DNA from: Pseudomonas fluorescens
Lineage (GTDB): Bacteria > Pseudomonadota > Gammaproteobacteria > Pseudomonadales > Pseudomonadaceae
NCBI RefSeq assembly: GCF_019212185.1
Contig: NZ_CP078138.1
Location: forward strand, 5,004,501-5,068,500
Reading direction: 5' to 3'
Length of the DNA: 64,000 bases
How positions within the stretch are numbered: the stretch's first letter is position 1; each line of letters begins with the position of its first letter. A program made the translations under genes and the position numbers. Below are positions 21,213 to 38,429 of the stretch, one piece after another. The notes under the pieces were generated by a model that was not told where the DNA came from, searched no databases, and worked only from the letters and a program-made list of their open reading frames with translations.

Positions 21213-21489
21213 CCAAACTTTATAGCCGGAAGAAACCATTACCGTACAAACCGGGGCGAAAAAGCGCTATTTGTCGGCGAAAACGCCACCTCCAGCGCGA
21301 TTCATGAGGTAATTCCCCCTACAGCAGGGTCAGACCTCTCCGTCACAGTAGTTTCACATTGCCACGAAGGCTCGGCTATTGTGCCGATCCACCCCTCTAT
21401 ATACTAGTGCGCTGTGTGGCTGTCTCGACTCGCCGATTCAGGTGTCTTGCGCCAACCCCGTCCCGGGTCGCTTTGAGCGGAATCCTGAA

Positions 21490-23097
21490 ATGAGCCAACA
21501 GTTTCAACACGATGTTCTGGTGATTGGCAGCGGCGCTGCCGGTTTGAGTCTGGCCCTGACACTGCCTGATCATTTGCGCATTGCCGTACTGAGCAAGGGC
21601 AACCTGGCCAACGGTTCGACTTACTGGGCCCAGGGCGGCGTCGCTGCCGTGCTGGATGACACTGACACCATTGAATCCCACGTCGATGACACCCTCAATG
21701 CTGGCGGTGGCTTGTGCCACGAAGATGCGGTGCGGTTTACCGTCGAGCATAGCCGCGAGGCCATTCAATGGCTCATCGATCAAGGCGTGCCCTTTACCCG
21801 CGACGAACAGTCCGGCACAGAGGACGGCGGCTTCGAGTTCCACCTGACCCGCGAAGGTGGCCACAGCCATCGGCGCATCATCCATGCCGCCGACGCCACC
21901 GGCGCGGCCATCTTCAATACCTTGCTGGCACAAGCACGGCAGCGTCCAAACATCGAACTGCTGGAGCAAAGGGTCGCCGTCGACCTGATCACCGAAAAAC
22001 GCCTGGGCCTGGATGGCGATCGGTGCCTCGGCGCCTACGTGCTCAATCGCGACTCCGGCGAAGTCGACACCTACGGCGCACGCTTCGTGATCCTTGCCTC
22101 CGGTGGTGCTGCCAAGGTCTACCTCTATACCAGCAACCCCGACGGAGCCTGCGGCGATGGCATCGCCATGGCCTGGCGCTCGGGCTGCCGGGTTGCCAAC
22201 CTGGAGTTCAACCAGTTCCATCCCACGTGCCTCTATCACCCGCAAGCCAAGAGTTTCCTGGTGACCGAAGCCCTGCGTGGCGAAGGTGCGCATCTCAAGC
22301 TGCCGAACGGCGAGCGCTTCATGCAACGCTTCGACCCACGGGCCGAACTGGCGCCGCGCGACATCGTTGCCCGCGCCATCGACCACGAGATGAAGCGGCT
22401 GGGCATCGACTGCGTCTACCTGGACATCAGCCACAAGCCCGAAGCCTTCATCAAGGCGCACTTCCCGACTGTCTATGAGCGCTGCCTCGAGTTCTCCATC
22501 GACATCACCAAACAACCGATCCCGGTGGTACCCGCTGCGCATTACACCTGCGGCGGCGTCATGGTCGACCAGCAGGGTCGCACCGACGTGCCCGGCCTCT
22601 ATGCGATTGGCGAGACCAGCTTCACCGGTCTGCACGGCGCCAATCGCATGGCCAGCAATTCGCTGCTGGAATGCTTCGTTTACGCGCGCTCGGCGGCGAC
22701 CGACATCCTTGAGCAACTGCCCCATGTGGCGATCCCCAACGCGCTGCCGGCCTGGGATGCGAGCCAGGTGACCGACTCGGATGAAGACGTGATCATCGCG
22801 CACAACTGGGACGAATTGCGGCGGTTCATGTGGGACTACGTCGGCATCGTGCGCACCAACAAGCGCTTGCAGCGCGCCGAGCATCGGGTGCGTCTGCTGC
22901 TGGACGAGATCGATGAGTTCTACAGCAACTATAAAGTGAGTAGAGACCTGATTGAATTGAGGAACCTTGCTCAGGTAGCTGAACTGATGATCCGGTCAGC
23001 GATGGAACGCAAGGAATCTCGGGGTCTGCACTACACGCTGGACTATCCAGAGATGCTGCCAGAGGCGAAGGATACGATCCTTACCCCGACCAGATGA
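21490..23097 (+). CDS. nadB: L-aspartate oxidase NadB with an element-supplied C-terminus
   Basis: NadB oxidises L-aspartate to iminoaspartate, the first step of NAD synthesis. The 535-residue flavoprotein has the FAD-binding [14 protein letters not shown] motif at the N-terminus, [13 protein letters not shown], HxxGGG-type fumarate reductase/succinate dehydrogenase motifs ([10 protein letters not shown]), and [11 protein letters not shown]. The ATG at 21490 gives the normal N-terminus. From 22935 on, the codons belong to the integrated element: they encode almost the native tail but are recoded and end ...DTILTPTR instead of ...[11 protein letters not shown]. The gene is therefore intact but chimeric, three residues shorter than native. 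Confidence 0.95.
22915..22934 (+). repeat. Left attachment site core (20 bp) in nadB
   Basis: GAGTTCTACAGCAACTATAA is found here and, identical, at 29670-29689. It encodes EFYSNY within NadB. Left of it the sequence is host nadB; right of it the recoded element tail begins. Confidence 0.9.
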
Positions 23098-23280
23098 GGC
23101 ACGTTAGGAGCCCTGAGCGTAGCACGCTGAGGACCCGTTTTGTAACAGCTTTGGGCCATCTTTGTCCCATCGCTGGGGTCCTTATCGCCTGCCCGTGAGA
23201 ACCTGAGCGAGGCCATACGGGGGAAACTGAGCCTGTAGAAGCAATGAGGTGGTCACTCCCAAATTTTCTGTATTTTCTCG

Positions 23281-23364
23281 TTAAGGTCTCTTGAGGTGCC
23301 CGTACAGCCACAAGGCCAGATGGACAGCCACACAGACCAGATAGGCAGCCTGTAAGGTGTCCAT
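23281..23364 (-). CDS. 27-residue single-span membrane peptide
   Basis: The frame starts at the ATG at 23364 and ends in TAA. AAGGAGA lies 6 bp upstream of the ATG, a very strong ribosome site. The peptide MDTLQAAYLVCVAVHLALWL continues YGHLKRP: one hydrophobic span of about 18 residues and a basic C-terminus, so N-out/C-in is likely. It is the last element gene before the left attachment site, 28 bp after the KilA-N-like gene. I do not recognise a family. A role at the membrane (lysis, exclusion) is speculation. Confidence 0.6.
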   Translation of the reverse strand: MDTLQAAYLVCVAVHLALWLYGHLKRP

Positions 23365-23392: not shown

Positions 23393-24133
23393 TCAGAATT
23401 CCGGGGATGATGCCTTGAGGTTCTCCTTGAGTCGGGCCTTGGCATCCCGCTGAGCTTTGTCCTTACGGGCTTTCACTTCGGCCACTCTGAGGTTCACCGC
23501 TTCAGCATTCTTGCGGAGCCAGTCCAGACCACGAGGCTTTACCCGCCAGCCTTCACGGTTGCCAAAGTCAGATGAGACCTTCACAAAGGCACCCACCTCG
23601 AAGCCCTGCTTGTGTGGTCGAGGTGAGCCCTCACGGGCTCCGAAGTTGTCGACGGGGTACACAAAGTTGCCCAATGTGACCAGAGCCTCAAGCGCGAGGC
23701 GTGATTGTTGGATACCAGCGACACGGCAAGCCTCAGTCCACGTCAGACCAGCGCCTCGGGCTTTCATGTCGAGGGTCGAAGCCTTGGGCATGTTGGCATC
23801 TAAGAGAGTCTTAGCGGATCTCAATTCGCCCACAGCATTGTTACGCATAGCGACGAAGGCACCAGCGACCATTAGATAGAAGTCAGTCGAGACCCACATG
23901 GCATAGGCGATTGTTCCCAGCTCATCAGCAAAGGTCCCGCTACCATCCAAGCTCCGCAAATTTCCGGAGGTTCGTAGCTCTACGGAGACCGCGTTACGCC
24001 ACTCAGACGGCGACTTACGGTCTGGTAGATTGAGCCCCTTATGGATCTCGTTGAGATGCCACATACGTTCGTCATTGGCTGAGAAGGTTTGACCCATCAG
24101 GGAAACAGGGATAGGGGTATTGGTCACGTTCAT
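23393..24133 (-). CDS. KilA-N domain-like phage regulatory protein
   Basis: The 246-residue protein starts at 24133 (MNVTNTPIPV) with AGAGGAACA upstream. Residues 20-100 resemble the KilA-N DNA-binding domain (WHLNEIHKGLNL, then GTFADELGTIAYAMWVSTDFYLMVAGAF). The part around 165-215 (GFEVGAFVKVSSDFGN, VKPRGLDWLRKNA) resembles the C-terminal domain often joined to KilA-N in antirepressors. The last 35 residues are a charged helix. Such proteins are phage or satellite regulators. The assignment is by motif reading only. Confidence 0.6.
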   Translation of the reverse strand: MNVTNTPIPVSLMGQTFSANDERMWHLNEIHKGLNLPDRKSPSEWRNAVSVELRTSGNLRSLDGSGTFADELGTIAYAMWVSTDFYLMVAGAFVAMRNNAVGELRSAKTLLDANMPKASTLDMKARGAGLTWTEACRVAGIQQSRLALEALVTLGNFVYPVDNFGAREGSPRPHKQGFEVGAFVKVSSDFGNREGWRVKPRGLDWLRKNAEAVNLRVAEVKARKDKAQRDAKARLKENLKASSPEF

Positions 24134-25451: not shown

Positions 25452-25850
25452 TTACCAACCAGAGTTACGGGCCCGGGCAGCTAAGACCTTGGAACCCTGC
25501 TCATAGATGGCAGCAGCACGGGCTACCCTGTCGGCCTTCGCTTGGGCCAGCTCACGGGGCGACCATTCACGTAGACGCTCAGCATGGGCATCGACTTCGC
25601 GTTGGGCTTGCTCGCGCTTCGCCTGCTCCTCTCGCTTGGTCTCGAAGTAAGTCAGAGCGTCCTCTTGGATGGCCTTAAGGGACAGACCAGCCTCATCGAA
25701 GGCTTTGATCACAGCGAACTTGGAGGTGTTGTTGCGACCACATTGGGCCATCAGCAAGGGCAACATGACGTTCTCTACATACTCACGGGCCAGGGTCTGA
25801 CCGGACACGGTTACTTCATTCTTCAGGACTTTGGTGATAGTGATTTTCAT
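25452..25850 (-). CDS. Small charged helical protein upstream of the capsid-like gene
   Basis: The 132-residue protein starts at 25850 (MKITITKVLKNEVTVSG) with AGGAGA about 10 bp upstream; an earlier in-frame start lacks such a site. Residues 60-110 are rich in Lys, Arg, Glu, Gln and Ala and should form a long amphipathic or coiled helix (ETKREEQAKREQAQREVDAH). I recognise no family. Scaffolding or regulatory roles are possible. Its leader contains the phage-type promoter at 26097-26119 and a 15-bp inverted repeat. Confidence 0.6.
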   Translation of the reverse strand: MKITITKVLKNEVTVSGQTLAREYVENVMLPLLMAQCGRNNTSKFAVIKAFDEAGLSLKAIQEDALTYFETKREEQAKREQAQREVDAHAERLREWSPRELAQAKADRVARAAAIYEQGSKVLAARARNSGW

Positions 25851-25877
25851 GGGTTTGGATCTCCTGTGAGGTGACCC

Positions 25878-25959
25878 TTTGATCGACCTTGGCGCCATAG
25901 ACGCGCACGACAAGACGGCAAGGAGGGAGCCGCATGGGCATCTTCCAAGGTCGATCAAA
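25878..25959 (-). repeat. 15-bp inverted repeat in the element's noncoding segment
   Basis: TTTGATCGACCTTGG (25878-25892) and its exact complement CCAAGGTCGATCAAA (25945-25959) are 52 bp apart. They lie in the roughly 250-base leader between the phage-type promoter and the 132-residue gene. It could be a structured RNA leader, a processing site or an origin element. The element's 25851-26140 segment holds no convincing gene. Confidence 0.6.
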
Positions 25960-26096
25960 AGGTTCTTGGTTTGGGTTTGTGGCTAATGCTGGATCAGGAC
26001 ATGGCAAGCCTGAGAGGCATCGAAGGACAACCGTGGCGACGGTCGGGTATTGCTGGTGAGGGTCCACTACAGGAATCTTTTAGGATTCTCTGAGGG

Positions 26097-26119
26097 TCTC
26101 CCAATAGTGAGGGGTTTTA
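26097..26119 (-). promoter_or_regulatory. T7/T3-like phage RNA polymerase promoter 1
   Basis: The minus strand reads TAAAACCCCTCACTATTG followed by GGAGA. It matches 17 of 23 positions of the T3 class promoter (core CCCTCACTA, start region GGGAGA). It is nearly identical to the second site at 27245-27267. The expected start is G at 26102. It points at the 132-residue gene, the capsid-like gene and the genes beyond. Confidence 0.75.
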
Positions 26120-26140
26120 AAGGTTACCTTGACGGGCACC

Positions 26141-26473
26141 TTAAAGCCTGAGCGAGATTGGCTCAGTTCCCGTCAAGGGAATCCTCAAGGGCACCGAAGC
26201 GATGGCTTGAAGGCATACACCTTGGGCGACCAGATGGGTTACCCGTTCGGCAGTCTTTGCGGAGCACTTCAAGGCGACCTCACGGAGCATGGTGTTCTTG
26301 TCGAAGGTGACGATCCCAGACTCATAGGTCCTAAAGGATGCGTTTCGCTTATTGAGGACACAACGAAGCTCAATCAGTTGAGGTCGTGAAGGTGGAGGGA
26401 AGACAAGAGACAAAGTGGTCAGGTCGTCCTCAGTGAGCAGGGAGGTAGCTGGGCAGGCGATGAGATCGGTCAT
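26141..26473 (-). CDS. Unknown 110-residue protein of the element
   Basis: The ATG at 26473 has AGGAGA about 9 bp upstream. The protein has no membrane segment or signal peptide. It contains three Cys residues and a predicted mixed fold (LIELRCVLNKRNASFRTY, TMLREVALKCSAKTAERVTHLV). I recognise no family. Upstream, the 198-bp gap to the next gene carries a degenerate phage-promoter-like stretch (AATTACAACCCTCATCG, minus strand, near 26525). Confidence 0.55.
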   Translation of the reverse strand: MTDLIACPATSLLTEDDLTTLSLVFPPPSRPQLIELRCVLNKRNASFRTYESGIVTFDKNTMLREVALKCSAKTAERVTHLVAQGVCLQAIASVPLRIPLTGTEPISLRL

Positions 26474-26671
26474 AAAGTTCTCCTTGGCGATGTACTTTGA
26501 GATTCCTTTCGATGAGGGTTGTAATTAACAAACGCCCTCTTCCTATGAGTCTGGTCGATGGGCCTCAATGAGAAACTTGAAGTAGCCCTTTTATATGTAT
26601 AGGCAGATTCAAGGGCCCACAGTGGCTATGGTCTCCAGCCATGTGTTGGTTGCAGTTTCGGAACCTTGACC

Positions 26672-27205
26672 TTATTCCACGCTGCCAATGCCGATCCAGT
26701 CGCCTATATAAGACTGCCGACTCATCAGGTCCCCACGCCAGCCATACCACGGATGCACAGCCACCTTGGTGGGCAGCGTCTTCCCTTGTCGGATCACACG
26801 GATTAAGCCAGCGCGGGTCAAGTCCCCGATTTCTCGCTTGGTCCCGATGTCCGCCAGCTTGCCGAACCAAATGTTCCGACCAGCCAGTCCCAGGAGGATC
26901 TGCCGGAATACCTTAACGGCGCCCGCTGTGATCTCTCCTGTTTCGAGTAGGTCCAGTAGCTTGTCAGCCTCGACGGTCAAGTTGTTGGTCCACTGGTCAT
27001 GAACAGAAAGGATCTCAAGGAGCTCCTCAGAGGTGCGGGCAGCGATTGGGAACCGGCATTGCTTGCCCACATCGGTGGTGATGGTGTGCTTCTTTATGTG
27101 GACCTTTTGGGTCGCAAGGATTTCACCTGAGCGGATGTCAAACGTCAGTTCATGCCCAGTTTGGGTGTCGAGGGTTGTCTTGATTGTGTTTTGAACGGTA
27201 GTCAT
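26672..27205 (-). CDS. Winged-helix replication-initiation-like protein
   Basis: The 177-residue protein starts at 27205 with a perfect AGGAGG. The N-terminal third is beta-rich. Residues 110-160 read as a winged helix (KLADIGTKREIGDLTRAGLIRVIRQGK) followed by KVAVHPWYGWRGD, which recalls the xxNPxxxWRG motif of small plasmid RepL-type proteins. This suggests a DNA-binding role, perhaps replication of the excised element. The family call is tentative. It is the first gene after phage-type promoter 2, with a 45-base leader. Confidence 0.45.
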   Translation of the reverse strand: MTTVQNTIKTTLDTQTGHELTFDIRSGEILATQKVHIKKHTITTDVGKQCRFPIAARTSEELLEILSVHDQWTNNLTVEADKLLDLLETGEITAGAVKVFRQILLGLAGRNIWFGKLADIGTKREIGDLTRAGLIRVIRQGKTLPTKVAVHPWYGWRGDLMSRQSYIGDWIGIGSVE

Positions 27206-27244
27206 TGGCTGGCCTCCTATCGCCTGATCAACAAGCGGGGTGCC

Positions 27245-27267
27245 TGTCGCAATAGTGAGGGTTTTTA
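27245..27267 (-). promoter_or_regulatory. T7/gh-1-like phage RNA polymerase promoter 2
   Basis: The minus strand reads TAAAAACCCTCACTATTG followed by CGACA. As I recall, the promoter consensus of Pseudomonas phage gh-1 begins TAAAAACCCTCACT, an exact match to the first 14 bases. It shares 17 of 18 bases with promoter 1. The expected start at about 27250 lies 45 bases before the start codon of the winged-helix gene. Confidence 0.75.
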
Positions 27268-27269
27268 AG

Positions 27270-27725
27270 TCACCTCTGGGTAACCTCTGGGTTCAACAGC
27301 CGCGCCTTGAGTTCATCCATGAGGCCCATTGCGATAGGGTTGGTGGACTGCTTAGCATCATACTTGCCGGTCTTGCGGATGGTCGGGACCACCTCGTCTG
27401 CAATCCAAGTACGGAATGCTTCGGCTGCCTGAGAGTCACCCCGCATGAGCATCCGGTAGACCCAGCCCTCAGAGGCCAGCCACGAGTTGGATTGAATCAC
27501 CTGACTTGGCGGTTGTCCGGGGACGCGGTTGTGTGCGTTAGACGAGCCTTGGACTGAATCCAAGACTCTCAAGGCGTCCCGCCATTGAAGCGCCCAGTTA
27601 CCTTAGGGTTCTTGCTGCGATAGACGGAGACGGCATTGCTTGGGTCTTTTAAATCGCTGTAGCGTGCCACTTGTGTAGCCACAAACAACAGGTCGTGTTC
27701 AGGGTGACCTACCAGAACGTCCAAC
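27270..27725 (-). pseudogene. BRO-N family gene, frameshifted and lacking its start
   Basis: Two frames together give a BRO-N domain. The 5' part reads LDVLVGHPEHDLLFVATQVARY..DPSNAVSVYR and stops at 27569-27571. The 3' part, in another frame up to 27572, reads SNSWLASEGWVYRMLMRGDS, then AEAFRTWIADEVVPTIRKTG. The frame changes near 27570. The 5' end is replaced by the AT-rich gene at 27726-28136, so no start codon remains. BRO-N proteins are phage regulatory or antirepressor-like proteins. Confidence 0.7.
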
Positions 27726-28136
27726 TTACAGGCTTTTACCTTCTGCTTTCTTAATATTATTATCCGCCACAGCGCAAATAAATTCAGCAACACTGGAAGC
27801 GACACTTCCACTCCCATACATAAAATCATTATCAAATTGATATTCGCCGTCGACACCTAAGCTTACAAGCTTCCCCATTTTCTTGCTGCAATCCGCAGCC
27901 GACACATACCACTTGTACAACGCTATATCAGAAGTCTTTGAATTAACCACTCTCCCTGCGATGACCGCAACGGAAACTTTATTTCTATTTGTAGAGAACT
28001 CAAATGAGCCGGGCTTTGCTTCCCATTTTAAACCATCCTTGGTTTCATCAAGACTTATCCAACTTGGCCCCGCAGAAGCCGAGAAACTGAGGATCAGGGA
28101 GATAGCACTCACCAATCCGATTGACCCCTTACGCAT
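27726..28136 (-). CDS. AT-rich cargo gene for a small secreted protein
   Basis: The 136-residue precursor starts at 28136 with AAGGAGA upstream. It has a clear signal peptide (MRKGSIGLVSAISLILSFSA, cleavage about ASA/GP). The mature part contains WYVSAADCSKKMGKLVSLGVDG and a later FICAVAD, so one disulfide is likely. It resembles small periplasmic proteins of the surface-adhesin E-like kind, function unknown. Its base composition is visibly richer in A+T than the rest of the element, and it abuts the broken BRO gene exactly. It looks like separately acquired cargo. Confidence 0.65.
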   Translation of the reverse strand: MRKGSIGLVSAISLILSFSASAGPSWISLDETKDGLKWEAKPGSFEFSTNRNKVSVAVIAGRVVNSKTSDIALYKWYVSAADCSKKMGKLVSLGVDGEYQFDNDFMYGSGSVASSVAEFICAVADNNIKKAEGKSL

Positions 28137-28171
28137 CTGAAATCTCCTTAAGACACGATAGAACAGTATCA

Positions 28172-29626
28172 TTAAGACATCACTCTGGCGACCAGTGAGA
28201 ACGTCTTCACGAGCGCCTCAGCCATACGCCCCACCTCAACGGCACTCCCAGCTCCATAAAGGTCATAACTGATCGACCCCGAAGCGTGCCCCAAGATTGA
28301 CTCAGCGGTCCCTACAGGCACCTCAGCGGCCTTCAAAGCGCCAGCCAGTGAGTGCCGTAATGAATGGAAGGTTTGGGTCCTATCAGCCTTCAGATCCAAG
28401 ACATCCCTGAGCATTCCATTGAGCAATACAGAGAACTGACCGCCGCCCAACGTGAACAACCGAGAGTCTGCCTTTTCGACAAACTCAAGGAACGCCTGAA
28501 GATCAAACCCATGACCCCCATCGGTCAACGGAATGACCCTCAAAGCGTTCTTGGTCTTCGCTGTCTTACCATCATTCCTATTGATGTCGATCACCCAAAC
28601 ACCCCCGACTCGCTTAACGTCCGCCTTGGTGAGCTGCCTCAGTTCCTCGATACGAGTCCCAGCGATGACCCCAAGGGACAGCGCCCAACGTTGCCATGCA
28701 TCCACTGGAAGGGTCTCAGCGTGAGCCATTAAGGCTTTGACTTGATCCTGAGAGAACGCCTCACGGGAGCTTTCAGCGCCTTTGGTTGGCTTGAGACCAT
28801 CCGTGAGAGCCTTGCTGAGATAGTCGTTGTTCACTGCCCACTTCATCACCGTTGATAGAGTGGTCAGGATCTTCCCCACCGTCAAAGGCTTGCGCCCTTC
28901 AAGGAGCTTGGCCCGAAGGTTCTTCATGTCCTCCCGAGTGTGGGTCTTGAGGTCCAAGCCACCGAGGATCTCAGCGATGGTCTTACAGGACGACCTCACG
29001 TCTCGTATGGTCCCTTCCCCCGCATGCTCCTTATGCTCATCCATGTAGAGCCCTGAGAGGGTCTTGAAGGTCAGAGGCTCAGACGGTAATACAGATAGGG
29101 ACGGAGACAGAGCTACAGACGTGCTACAACCCTCACTCTTGAGGTCCCTCATGATCTCGACCAGCTTCCCCGGACGACCCTCCAAGCGCTCTTGAGCGGC
29201 CTCAAGGATCTCCAATGCCTTGCTCACAGCCCGTTGCTGATTGACTGTGAGCGGTAGCTTGGCGCTGGCCTCACGAAGGGCAACATGCTGCTCATCATGG
29301 ATCATCTCGTAGGCAATCAATGAGCCATCCCCATGAGCCATCGTCAGGCAGCTCTCAGCGATGTCCTCAAGGCGCCCTCTCAGCTCATCCCAAGTGGCCT
29401 CAGGGTTGTCGAAGTGGAAAGCCTTGAGGGTCTGAAGGATGTCTTGGGAGATGGTCATAGCGGTGGCCTTGTCGGTGGTCCTGAGCGATAGCGTGAAGAA
29501 GCCCTTAGCGGTCCCTTGAGGGCGAAGGCGAAGGTAATAGCGACCAGACCGGCGATAGTGGTACGGCTTGGCGAGGGCAGTTTGTAACAGGTTTGTCCCA
29601 GTTTGGGAGCGCTGGTTGATGGTCAT
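28172..29626 (-). CDS. int: Tyrosine recombinase (integrase) of the element
   Basis: The 484-residue integrase has an N-terminal arm-type domain (YHYRRSGRYYLRLRPQGTAKG), a core-binding SAM-like domain (about 205-290) and a catalytic domain (about 300-470). The catalytic domain has Arg in AGTRIEELRQL, HxxR in FHSLRHSLAG, His in ILGHASGS and the nucleophile Tyr in SISYDLYG. Its 5' end is 44 bp from the right attachment core, the usual place. It should carry out integration into and excision from nadB. No excisionase gene was recognised. Confidence 0.92.
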   Translation of the reverse strand: MTINQRSQTGTNLLQTALAKPYHYRRSGRYYLRLRPQGTAKGFFTLSLRTTDKATAMTISQDILQTLKAFHFDNPEATWDELRGRLEDIAESCLTMAHGDGSLIAYEMIHDEQHVALREASAKLPLTVNQQRAVSKALEILEAAQERLEGRPGKLVEIMRDLKSEGCSTSVALSPSLSVLPSEPLTFKTLSGLYMDEHKEHAGEGTIRDVRSSCKTIAEILGGLDLKTHTREDMKNLRAKLLEGRKPLTVGKILTTLSTVMKWAVNNDYLSKALTDGLKPTKGAESSREAFSQDQVKALMAHAETLPVDAWQRWALSLGVIAGTRIEELRQLTKADVKRVGGVWVIDINRNDGKTAKTKNALRVIPLTDGGHGFDLQAFLEFVEKADSRLFTLGGGQFSVLLNGMLRDVLDLKADRTQTFHSLRHSLAGALKAAEVPVGTAESILGHASGSISYDLYGAGSAVEVGRMAEALVKTFSLVARVMS

Positions 29627-29669: not shown

Positions 29670-29689
29670 GAGTTCTACAGCAACTATAA
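29670..29689 (+). repeat. Right attachment site core (20 bp)
   Basis: This is identical to 22915-22934. To its right the host nadB tail continues in its original codons. Confidence 0.9.
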
Positions 29690-29861
29690 GGTCAGTCGCG
29701 ACTTGATTGAGTTGCGCAACCTGGCGCAAGTGGCCGAACTGATGATTCGTTCAGCCATGGCCCGAAAGGAAAGCCGCGGCCTGCATTACACGCTGGACTA
29801 CCCGAATATGTTGCCGCAAGCACTGGACACTATTCTGGTGCCGCCCACCTACGCCGACTGA
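29670..29861 (+). pseudogene. nadB: Displaced native 3' end of nadB
   Basis: In frame from the core this reads [20 protein letters not shown] and on to [11 protein letters not shown], then TGA at 29859-29861. It is the original last 62 codons of nadB, left without a start by the insertion. It shares most amino acids with the element-supplied tail but few third codon positions. Its last 32 bp overlap the 3' end of ygfX on the other strand. Confidence 0.9.
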
Positions 29862-36962: not shown

Positions 36963-38429
36963 GTGACCCATCCCCTGCCCCTGCTGCGCCATTTCGTGAA
37001 CGGCGAGTTCGTTGCGACCGCCGCGACCTTTGACAAGGTTTCTCCCATCGACGGTCGAACCCTGGCCCGGGTCTGCAAGGCCGACGCAGCATTGGTGGAC
37101 AGTGCGGTCACTGCGGCCAAAGCGGCTCAAGACGGTCCCTGGGCCGGCTACAGCGCCGATCAGCGGGCGGATGTGCTGGTGCGCATTGCCGATGGCATCG
37201 AGCGTCGCTTCGAGGAGTTCGTTGCCGCCGAGGTGGCCGATACCGGTCGCCCCGTCCAGCAGGCCCGGACCCTGGATATCGCCCGTGGCGTGCACAACTT
37301 CCGCACCTTCGCCGAACTGATTCGCCAAGCGGGCGGCGAGTATTACGAGATGCGCACCGCCGACGCCAGCGACGTCTTCAGCTACACCCTGCGCAAACCT
37401 CACGGCGTGGTCGCGATCATCTCACCGTGGAACCTGCCGATGCTGCTGCTGACCTGGAAGGTCGCGCCTGCGCTGGCGTGCGGCAACTCGGTGGTGGTCA
37501 AGCCGTCGGAAGAATCCCCCAGCACCGCCACCTTGCTGGCTGAAGTCATGCAGGAAGTCGGCGTGCCGGCCGGCGTGTTCAATCTGGTGCATGGATTGGG
37601 GCGCAACTCGGCCGGTGAATTCCTCACCCGTCACCCCGATGTCGATGCCATTACTTTCACCGGCGAGTCCCGCACCGGCGCCACCATCATGAAAGCGGCC
37701 GCCGAGGGCGTGCGCGAAGTGTCCTTCGAACTGGGGGGCAAGAACGCCGCCGTGGTCTTCGCCGACTGCGACTTCGACGCCGCCGTCGCAGGCGTGCTGC
37801 GCTCCAGCTTCACCAACTCCGGCCAGGTCTGCCTGTGCTCGGAACGGGTCTACGTCGAACGACCGATCTTCGAGCGCTTTGTTGCCGCCCTCAAGGAGGG
37901 CGCTGAAAAGCTCAAGATCGGCTACCCGGACGAGGACGGCGTGAACATGGGTTCGCTGATCTCCCACCAGCACCGCGACAAGGTGCTCGGCTACTTCGAA
38001 CTGGCCCGCCGCGAGGGTGCGACGGTGGTCACCGGTGGCGGTGTGCCGCACTTCGGCGACGCCCGCGACAACGGTGCCTATGTGCAACCGACGATCTGGA
38101 CCGGGCTGTCCGATGACGCCCACTGCGTGCGTGAGGAAGTTTTCGGTCCGGTCTGTCACGTCGCCCCGTTCGACCGCGACGATGAAGTGATCCGTCGCGT
38201 CAACGATTCCGCCTACGGCCTGGCCGCCGCCGTCTGGACCACCAACCTCAAGCGCGCGCACAAGGTGTCCGGCCAGTTGCGCGTCGGCATGGTCTGGGTC
38301 AACACCTGGTTCCTGCGTGACCTGCGCACCCCATTCGGTGGGGCACGACTCTCCGGCCTGGGCCGCGAGGGTGGCCGTCACTCACTGGACTTCTACTCCC
38401 AAGCCACCACCGTCTGCGTTAACGCCTGA
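36963..38429 (+). CDS. nbaE: 2-aminomuconate-6-semialdehyde dehydrogenase
   Basis: The enzyme oxidises 2-aminomuconate semialdehyde to 2-aminomuconate with NAD. The 488-residue aldehyde dehydrogenase has the NAD site ([19 protein letters not shown]), FTGESRTGA, the catalytic Glu in [13 protein letters not shown] and the catalytic Cys in [13 protein letters not shown]. The GTG start at 36963 has a strong GGAGG 4-5 bp upstream. It is first in the operon E-H-J-I-G-F-C-D. Related hydroxymuconic semialdehyde dehydrogenases are similar; the aminomuconate substrate follows from the neighbours. Confidence 0.88.

Follow-up and report, generated by a model that had tools for sequence, protein, structure and literature searches.

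T7-like phages bring their own RNA polymerase and seize the cell fast, and the known logics by which phage satellites are induced include derepression and activation by helper proteins. Here, we describe an element of 6,755 bp in the 3′ end of the nadB gene of Pseudomonas fluorescens (assembly GCF_019212185.1, contig NZ_CP078138.1), analysed within a stretch of 64,000 nt (positions 5,004,501 to 5,068,500 of the forward strand) that we call the window. The element carries two T7-class promoters, a gene for a capsid protein with a predicted HK97 fold and a segment homologous to the terminal-repeat boundary of T7-like phages. Sequence comparison across its relatives makes it very likely that the family, found in Pseudomonas and Stutzerimonas, consists of integrating satellites whose helpers are T7-like (Studiervirinae) phages; they would be induced by the polymerase of the helper, packaged by its terminase and probably enclosed in a shell that they encode themselves. 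From the integration site, the promoters, the predicted capsid fold and the terminal-repeat boundary, all of which can be read from the sequence, we infer induction by the helper polymerase, a shell made of the element's own protein, packaging by the helper terminase and delivery by the helper tail.

Two T7-class promoters in an integrated element

The length of the element is the spacing of two exact copies of a 20-nt core, GAGTTCTACAGCAACTATAA. The 178-nt direct repeat that includes them (22915–23092 and 29670–29847, spacing 6755) is 75% identical, and the nadB open reading frame (ORF; 21379–23097) is uninterrupted over the junction, so the present 3′ end of nadB appears to be supplied by the element. 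Together, an integrase and the attachment repeats identify it as an integrated element, as a satellite should be. Read along the minus strand, the integrase gene is followed by the gene for a 148-aa protein, a split Ant/Bro-N gene and promoter site 2; genes for proteins of 177 and 110 aa come next, then promoter site 1, and after it the genes for the 132-aa, capsid and KilA-N-like proteins, with the terminal-repeat-boundary segment last. The features that carry the argument are as follows, in window coordinates.

22915..22934, attachment core GAGTTCTACAGCAACTATAA on the nadB side: exact 20-nt core at the start of the 178-nt repeat 22915–23092
29670..29689, attachment core GAGTTCTACAGCAACTATAA, copy 2: exact 20-nt core at the displaced nadB 3′ end, 29670–29847
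27245..27267, minus strand, T7-class promoter site 2: TAAAAACCCTCACTATTGCGACA, +1 at 27250, first of the pair in transcription order, 39.9 bits
26097..26119, minus strand, T7-class promoter site 1: TAAAACCCCTCACTATTGGGAGA, +1 at 26102 with a GGGAGA start, second of the pair, 34.9 bits
24371..25381, minus strand, major capsid protein: 336 aa, predicted HK97 fold
23198..23290, minus strand, terminal-repeat-boundary homologue (terminase cut region): E 8.3e-4, the best in the 64-kb window on both strands, next 4.9

An earlier note on this DNA had claimed two 23-bp promoters of T7/gh-1 type at these minus-strand places, and coordinates, pattern and matrix scores agree on them. Both sites are intergenic and directed at element genes: the +1 of site 2 lies 45 nt ahead of the ATG that opens the 177-aa gene, and the 132-aa and capsid genes follow site 1. 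An 18-base pattern allowing up to three mismatches matches the window twice, both times perfectly, against 0.04 matches expected, and two matches were reached in none of 100 shuffles. With a matrix trained only on the promoters of six phages (57 collected by a consensus word, 27 of them distinct; minimum 27.6 bits, median 34.7), just one further site in the window exceeds 8 bits; it scores 11.8, lies on the plus strand within the integrase gene (29124) and was treated as chance.

Genome-wide, the 14-base core AACCCTCACTATTG has one perfect match in 6.34 Mb, which is site 2, and two matches with one mismatch, which are site 1 and plus-strand window position 29128 inside the integrase gene; nine further places have two mismatches, and a reversed-pattern control gave 19 matches in all. 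Equally good matches across the chromosome, which the earlier note had named as the result that would speak against it, were thus not seen: all three best core matches lie in the element. Its claim that the element has no phage polymerase was also borne out. The T7-type RNA polymerase family PF00940 has no match in the host genome, in a search in which phage PMBT23 served as positive control and was matched, nor in 14 control genomes. Across the ten window ORFs, Pfam and PHROGs revealed no polymerase, replication, portal or terminase family and no protease or head–tail connector family, although very divergent proteins could escape these collections; the sole match with a tail-related name, phrog_27398, has an E value of 0.072 and was treated as chance.

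Both window 23-mers are letter-identical to promoters of phages PMBT23 and Mudajogi (...TATTGCGACA and ...TATTGGGAGA); the counterpart of site 2, identical over 23 bp, precedes the scaffold gene in both phages. In PMBT23, PPPL-1 and Mudajogi, ...CACTATTGCGACA precedes the scaffold and capsid genes and ...CACTATTGGGAGA stands close to the right end, and site 1 aligns to the right-end promoter region of these three phages (49-bp alignment, 85.7%, E 1.3e-5). A third promoter type, AATAA...CCCTCACTATTGCGAG, occurs in Kompost-2 and Ep007 and fits element L060. The promoters of gh-1 have G at −1, mostly as ...TATGGCTGCA or TGTGGCTGCA, whereas the window sites have T, and for this reason we rejected a specific role of gh-1 as helper.

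The interval that separates site 1 from the 132-aa gene contains an inverted repeat of 19 nt (95%) whose arms are 52 nt apart (25874–25963), perhaps an RNA processing hairpin.

Promoters recur on one strand across a family of elements

The capsid protein occurs in 16 of 199 genomes of the genus, the window's own included, 15 of which have no match to PF00940. It also occurs in 37 genome_contigs loci, 34 titled Pseudomonas or Stutzerimonas; the remaining three come from contigs of a gamma proteobacterium, of a Streptomyces and of a member of the Micrococcales, and contamination may account for the latter two. A search of IMG/VR with the capsid sequence alone returned no relative, and a search with an alignment returned five contigs. 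The locus set used below is the window and 42 relatives. From the 37 and the five, one locus each was left out (L121, with 85 residues, and L082, respectively), and L060 and L061 were added from a set of 20 loci, the other 18 being omitted, most of them duplicating places already covered. The counts retain near-copies and similar pairs (L106/L107/L108, L097/L098 and L103/L104) as well as L105 and L120, which are contigs of a single strain, each with part of a capsid gene. Of the two alignments, A1 holds the window, 28 of the 120 homologues listed (the best 120 of 218) and 11 loci, and A3 holds the window and 20 of the 120 listed (the best 120 of 385).

Across the family, a small set of genes is repeated in a constant order. 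Among the 43 loci, many of them cut by contig ends, the 132-aa cluster is present in 41, the integrase and the KilA-N-like protein in 30 each and the 110-aa protein in 20. Size varies little, from 6,388 to 6,755 bp in the 12 elements, including that of the window, in which both nadB cores were found with at most four mismatches. The longest contigs of the 120 capsid homologues listed number 14 at 6–7 kb against four at 5–6 kb and six at 7–8 kb; this peak fits free element molecules, in a suggestive way only, and contigs below 4 kb are commoner than the 6–7-kb group. Four elements (L089, L094, L096 and L100) have no nadB core and are flanked on the left by a gene for a 166–170-aa protein, which suggests one or more insertion sites besides nadB.

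A scan of the loci with the phage-trained matrix at 12 bits, from −4,300 to +2,100 around the capsid start (243 kb), gave 56 promoters, every one of them on the coding strand. The flanks (199 kb) hold none on either strand, and a Markov null gave 1.0 for both strands together. The promoters lie mostly at about −1.7 to −2.1 kb and −0.7 to −1.5 kb from the capsid start, with a few further upstream, and 32 of the 43 loci have at least one. Of the 11 loci without a promoter, eight stop within 0.28–2.13 kb on the upstream side of the capsid gene and so lack all or part of the promoter region; the other three are near-identical and have a diverged motif. In a more distant branch (L117, L118 and L119), promoter-like sites stand further upstream and the 110-aa domain is found inside proteins of 325–335 aa.

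The two promoters of an element also co-vary. Over positions −3 to +7, 6.5 of 10 bases agree within pairs against 5.06 after shuffling (24 pairs, p 2e-4), with the qualifications that the pairs are not fully independent, some elements being close relatives, and that in one pair (L102) the second site lies 1.27 kb past the capsid start. Five elements (L085, L087, L090, L060 and L061) have CACTG at the first site and CACTA at the second, the same change that occurs from early to late genes in phages PMBT23, PPPL-1 and Mudajogi; the window has CACTA at both sites, and L112 has the reverse order. The elements of Pseudomonas putida strains KH-21-134 and HAI-2 have promoters with G at −1, the base that gh-1 has there.

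The comparison with related elements that the earlier note had proposed as a check therefore came out in its favour, the promoters recurring in a single orientation at similar places. Together with the terminal-repeat boundary in the relatives, described below, this supports its suggestion that the element is switched on when a T7-like phage infects and supplies its polymerase, whereas its choice of gh-1 is not supported.

A homologue of the phage terminal-repeat boundary and a predicted capsid gene

Elements and phage genomes have in common a stretch of about 80–110 bp that stands at the right end of complete phage records. The annotated terminal repeat of gh-1 starts at 37143, inside matched intervals such as 37109–37194, and the depositor-annotated starts in phiPSA2, PlaquesPlease and Laces98 fall at the same place of the stretch. 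An nhmmer profile built from six phages alone found the boundary in 36 of the 42 relatives (614 kb searched), in 35 at an E value of 2.3e-3 or better and in L091 at 0.029. All 36 matches lie on the coding strand, 3′ of the capsid gene, 1.2–3.0 kb past the capsid start; the only others at E up to 1 are two on the opposite strand (E 0.23 and 0.25). L086, L103, L104, L116, L120 and L060 gave no match, L120 ending before that place. The element promoters are directed towards the segment, as they are in the phages. In the distant branch L117–L119, it stands 2.5–3.0 kb past the capsid start. For possible counterparts in E. coli, the 251-bp right end of T3, an assumed and unannotated terminal-repeat boundary, was unmatched in an E. 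coli collection of 20,395 records.

The capsid gene is under purifying selection (dN/dS 0.13–0.29), and its predicted fold would give the element a capsid protein of its own, a property of capsid-forming phage-inducible chromosomal islands (cf-PICIs). Sequence homology of the protein to T7 gp10 was rejected, hhalign detecting none; the link is confined to the level of the predicted fold. Its best match by sequence in the PDB has an E value of 0.71, and a tblastn search of 50,697 phage records gave no match. Some homologues of 415–425 aa (P0044 and others, in Pseudomonas orientalis, P. syringae and related genomes) have an extra C-terminal Big_2 immunoglobulin-like domain. In L114 (Pseudomonas taiwanensis xwS3), a stretch directly after the capsid gene, 0.95–1.48 kb past the capsid start, has 64–68% DNA identity to the region of the T7-like internal virion protein gene 14.

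The best fold matches of the 336-aa model include encapsulins, as might be expected if the host had adopted the shell as an encapsulin-like compartment or gene-transfer particle and the promoter-like sequences had no current use. We consider this extremely improbable: the integrase, the attachment repeats, the patchy distribution (16 of 199) and the terminal-repeat boundary indicate a mobile element, and the strand bias and pairing of the promoters would be left unexplained.

Another possibility is that the promoters, the Ant gene and the terminal-repeat end are what is left of a complete integrated T7-like phage. In favour of this, contig 22 of genome G103 (L133–L135, about 41–78 kb) holds a T7-like prophage with homologues of RNA polymerase, DNA polymerase, portal, capsid and terminase, near a tyrosine integrase that is 46% identical to that of the element; its promoters, such as CTAATAGGGACAC and CTGATAGGACATC, resemble those of the Stutzerimonas element L112. 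Decay from such a prophage is nevertheless difficult to reconcile with a gene set and order kept family-wide at 6.4–6.8 kb in 12 elements, with promoter pairs that co-vary and with a capsid protein for which no sequence relation to gp10 was detected and which is under purifying selection. The capsid family in complete T7-like phages would have been support for it, and the tblastn search above found no such case. On balance, we judge a decayed prophage very unlikely. If the elements are satellites, temperate T7-like phages could act as helpers too.

Other genes and possible cargo

The remaining genes of the element, all on the minus strand, are listed below.

28172..29626, minus strand, tyrosine integrase: 484 aa, Pfam PF00589 (E 1.3e-14), PHROG phrog_1 (E 1.6e-41)
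27726..28172, minus strand, 148-aa protein: signal-peptide-like start (by eye), no family match, a relative in L104
27270..27572 and 27569..27856, minus strand, Ant/Bro-N-like gene as two overlapping ORFs: Bro-N E 2.8e-6 (3′ piece), Ant PHROGs
26672..27205, minus strand, 177-aa protein: first gene past site 2, no family above the cut-off
26141..26473, minus strand, 110-aa protein: no family
25452..25850, minus strand, 132-aa protein: directly before the capsid gene
23393..24133, minus strand, KilA-N/transcription-regulator-like protein: ORF open to 24226, phrog_129 (E 1.7e-6)

The Ant/Bro-N-like gene, which has 78.6% DNA identity over 158 nt to PMBT23, is one intact ORF of 163–242 aa in L091, L094 and L096. 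The KilA-N domain of the 23393..24133 protein is under the Pfam cut-off (E 0.057). By its position and helices, the 132-aa protein is a candidate scaffold or capsid-size protein, at the level of a guess; its model is helical and gave no scaffold match.

The stretch between the integrase and the first promoter differs between elements (27726–28172 and its counterparts in L104, L107, L100, L094, L060 and L101), with genes for signal-peptide-like, weakly SH3-like, DUF4145 and weakly HEPN-like proteins, which are possibly cargo or exclusion genes; the 148-aa gene of the window is probably cargo at this place. In some other elements the place of the 177-aa gene is taken by an HNH endonuclease or other proteins, the counterpart in L099 matching HNH_3 at 2.8e-15.

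Variable mid-element genes of this sort (HNH endonuclease, DUF4145, weak HEPN-like) would suit a phage-triggered defence island, in which the helper polymerase switches on genes that abort infection and no transfer takes place, and polymerase-dependent promoters would also suit such a trap. The earlier note had left the choice between a satellite and a defence island open. We found no PADLOC match to a known defence gene, at E up to 0.1, among eight element proteins of the window, although a system of an undescribed kind could escape such a search, and it is hard to see what purely defensive purpose a capsid gene and a terminal-repeat boundary would serve. We consider a defence island highly improbable, and the family comparison favours a satellite; interference with the helper may be a by-product of parasitism.

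Points against a polymerase-induced satellite

Several observations weigh against this interpretation. The loci are related and partly redundant, so that the counts and the p value overstate independence, an effect that touches the flank and strand controls less. The nine phages scanned include UNO-SLW1, with no promoter of this motif, and phi 21A, with one; some T7-like Pseudomonas phages thus use other promoters, and not every T7-like phage could serve as helper. In G103, the sole genome with a T7-like prophage, the promoter class of the element differs from that of the prophage. Promoter class and terminal-repeat class are associated as a trend only (6 of 9 versus 1 of 7, p 0.06), in a hand-drawn two-by-two table of loci with a readable −1 base, from which the tie L085 and the mixed −1 bases of L087, L099 and L102 are omitted and in which the similar elements L097 and L098 are both counted. 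The capsid protein has no sequence link to gp10, and its shell would nonetheless have to take a T7-type portal. In the window itself, the packaging segment is weak (E 8.3e-4) and the Ant gene is broken into two ORFs; this copy may therefore be partly decayed and less active than its relatives.

Proposed mechanism and comparison with known satellites

In the mechanism that we propose, the integrase would put the 6.76-kb element into the 3′ end of nadB and provide a substitute end, as the repeats suggest. A phage of the PMBT23/PPPL-1 group would inject its DNA and make its single-subunit RNA polymerase, which would read both element promoters, site 2 driving the 177-aa operon and site 1 the 132-aa/capsid operon. 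The identity, orientation and co-variation of the promoters point to direct reading by the helper polymerase, in which case there would be no repressor to inactivate. Replication would probably be carried out by helper enzymes. The element would build its own shell, of the predicted HK97 fold, and the helper terminase would recognise the copied terminal-repeat boundary and fill the particle. Portal, tail and ejection proteins would come from the helper, because none were recognised in the element.

We think it likely that a widespread family of satellites uses the RNA polymerase of a virulent T7-like phage as its switch of induction, that the promoters are adjusted to individual phage lineages, with a division into early-type and late-type promoters in some elements, and that a self-encoded capsid of separate origin is combined with the cut signal for the helper terminase and with the helper portal and tail, yielding hybrid particles with one 6.5-kb genome each. 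Promoters would then predict which phage and which element pair, making helper range readable from sequence. A satellite that reads the helper polymerase directly would, if confirmed, represent a further induction logic. It also raises two questions: how a capsid protein that has no sequence relation to gp10 can function alongside a portal and a terminase of T7 type, and whether the elements shield Pseudomonas populations from such phages.

Ghunavirus-type T7-like phages (gh-1, PPPL-1 and PMBT23) resemble the element in their promoters, an Ant-like gene and the terminal-repeat boundary; unlike them, the element has no recognised polymerase, replication, portal, tail or terminase genes, and its capsid is no sequence homologue of gp10. 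Staphylococcus aureus pathogenicity islands (SaPIs) are induced by a helper protein that derepresses them, in place of which the element would use direct promoter recognition. Satellites of the P4/SaPI type redirect the capsid of the helper, whereas the element carries a separate capsid gene; it would be like them in being packaged by the helper terminase through a recognition site of the satellite (cos or pac), as outlined in the introduction of PMC10690885.

According to the same text, cf-PICIs encode a major capsid protein, protease, portal, connectors and both terminase subunits and need the helper for tails only (PMC10690885); by comparison, the element shows only a capsid protein and one candidate assembly protein, with induction apparently through helper-polymerase promoters. 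The Streptomyces phage satellites Mulch and Flayer, as presented there, are like the element in having encapsidation genes of their own, no key replication genes and virulent helpers, and unlike it in having a full set of capsid and packaging genes, direct terminal repeats and siphovirus helpers. Neither "RNA polymerase" nor "promoter" occurs as a term in the main text of that paper (PMC10690885).

In the open literature (5.39 million papers), covered through titles and abstract openings and with most subscription journals and bioRxiv outside its bounds, we found no satellite with T7-like or Autographiviridae helpers. Phage satellites are a known kind of element; what would be new in this family is the combination of promoters read by the helper polymerase, helpers of the T7-like group and a capsid gene unaccompanied by genes for a portal or a terminase.
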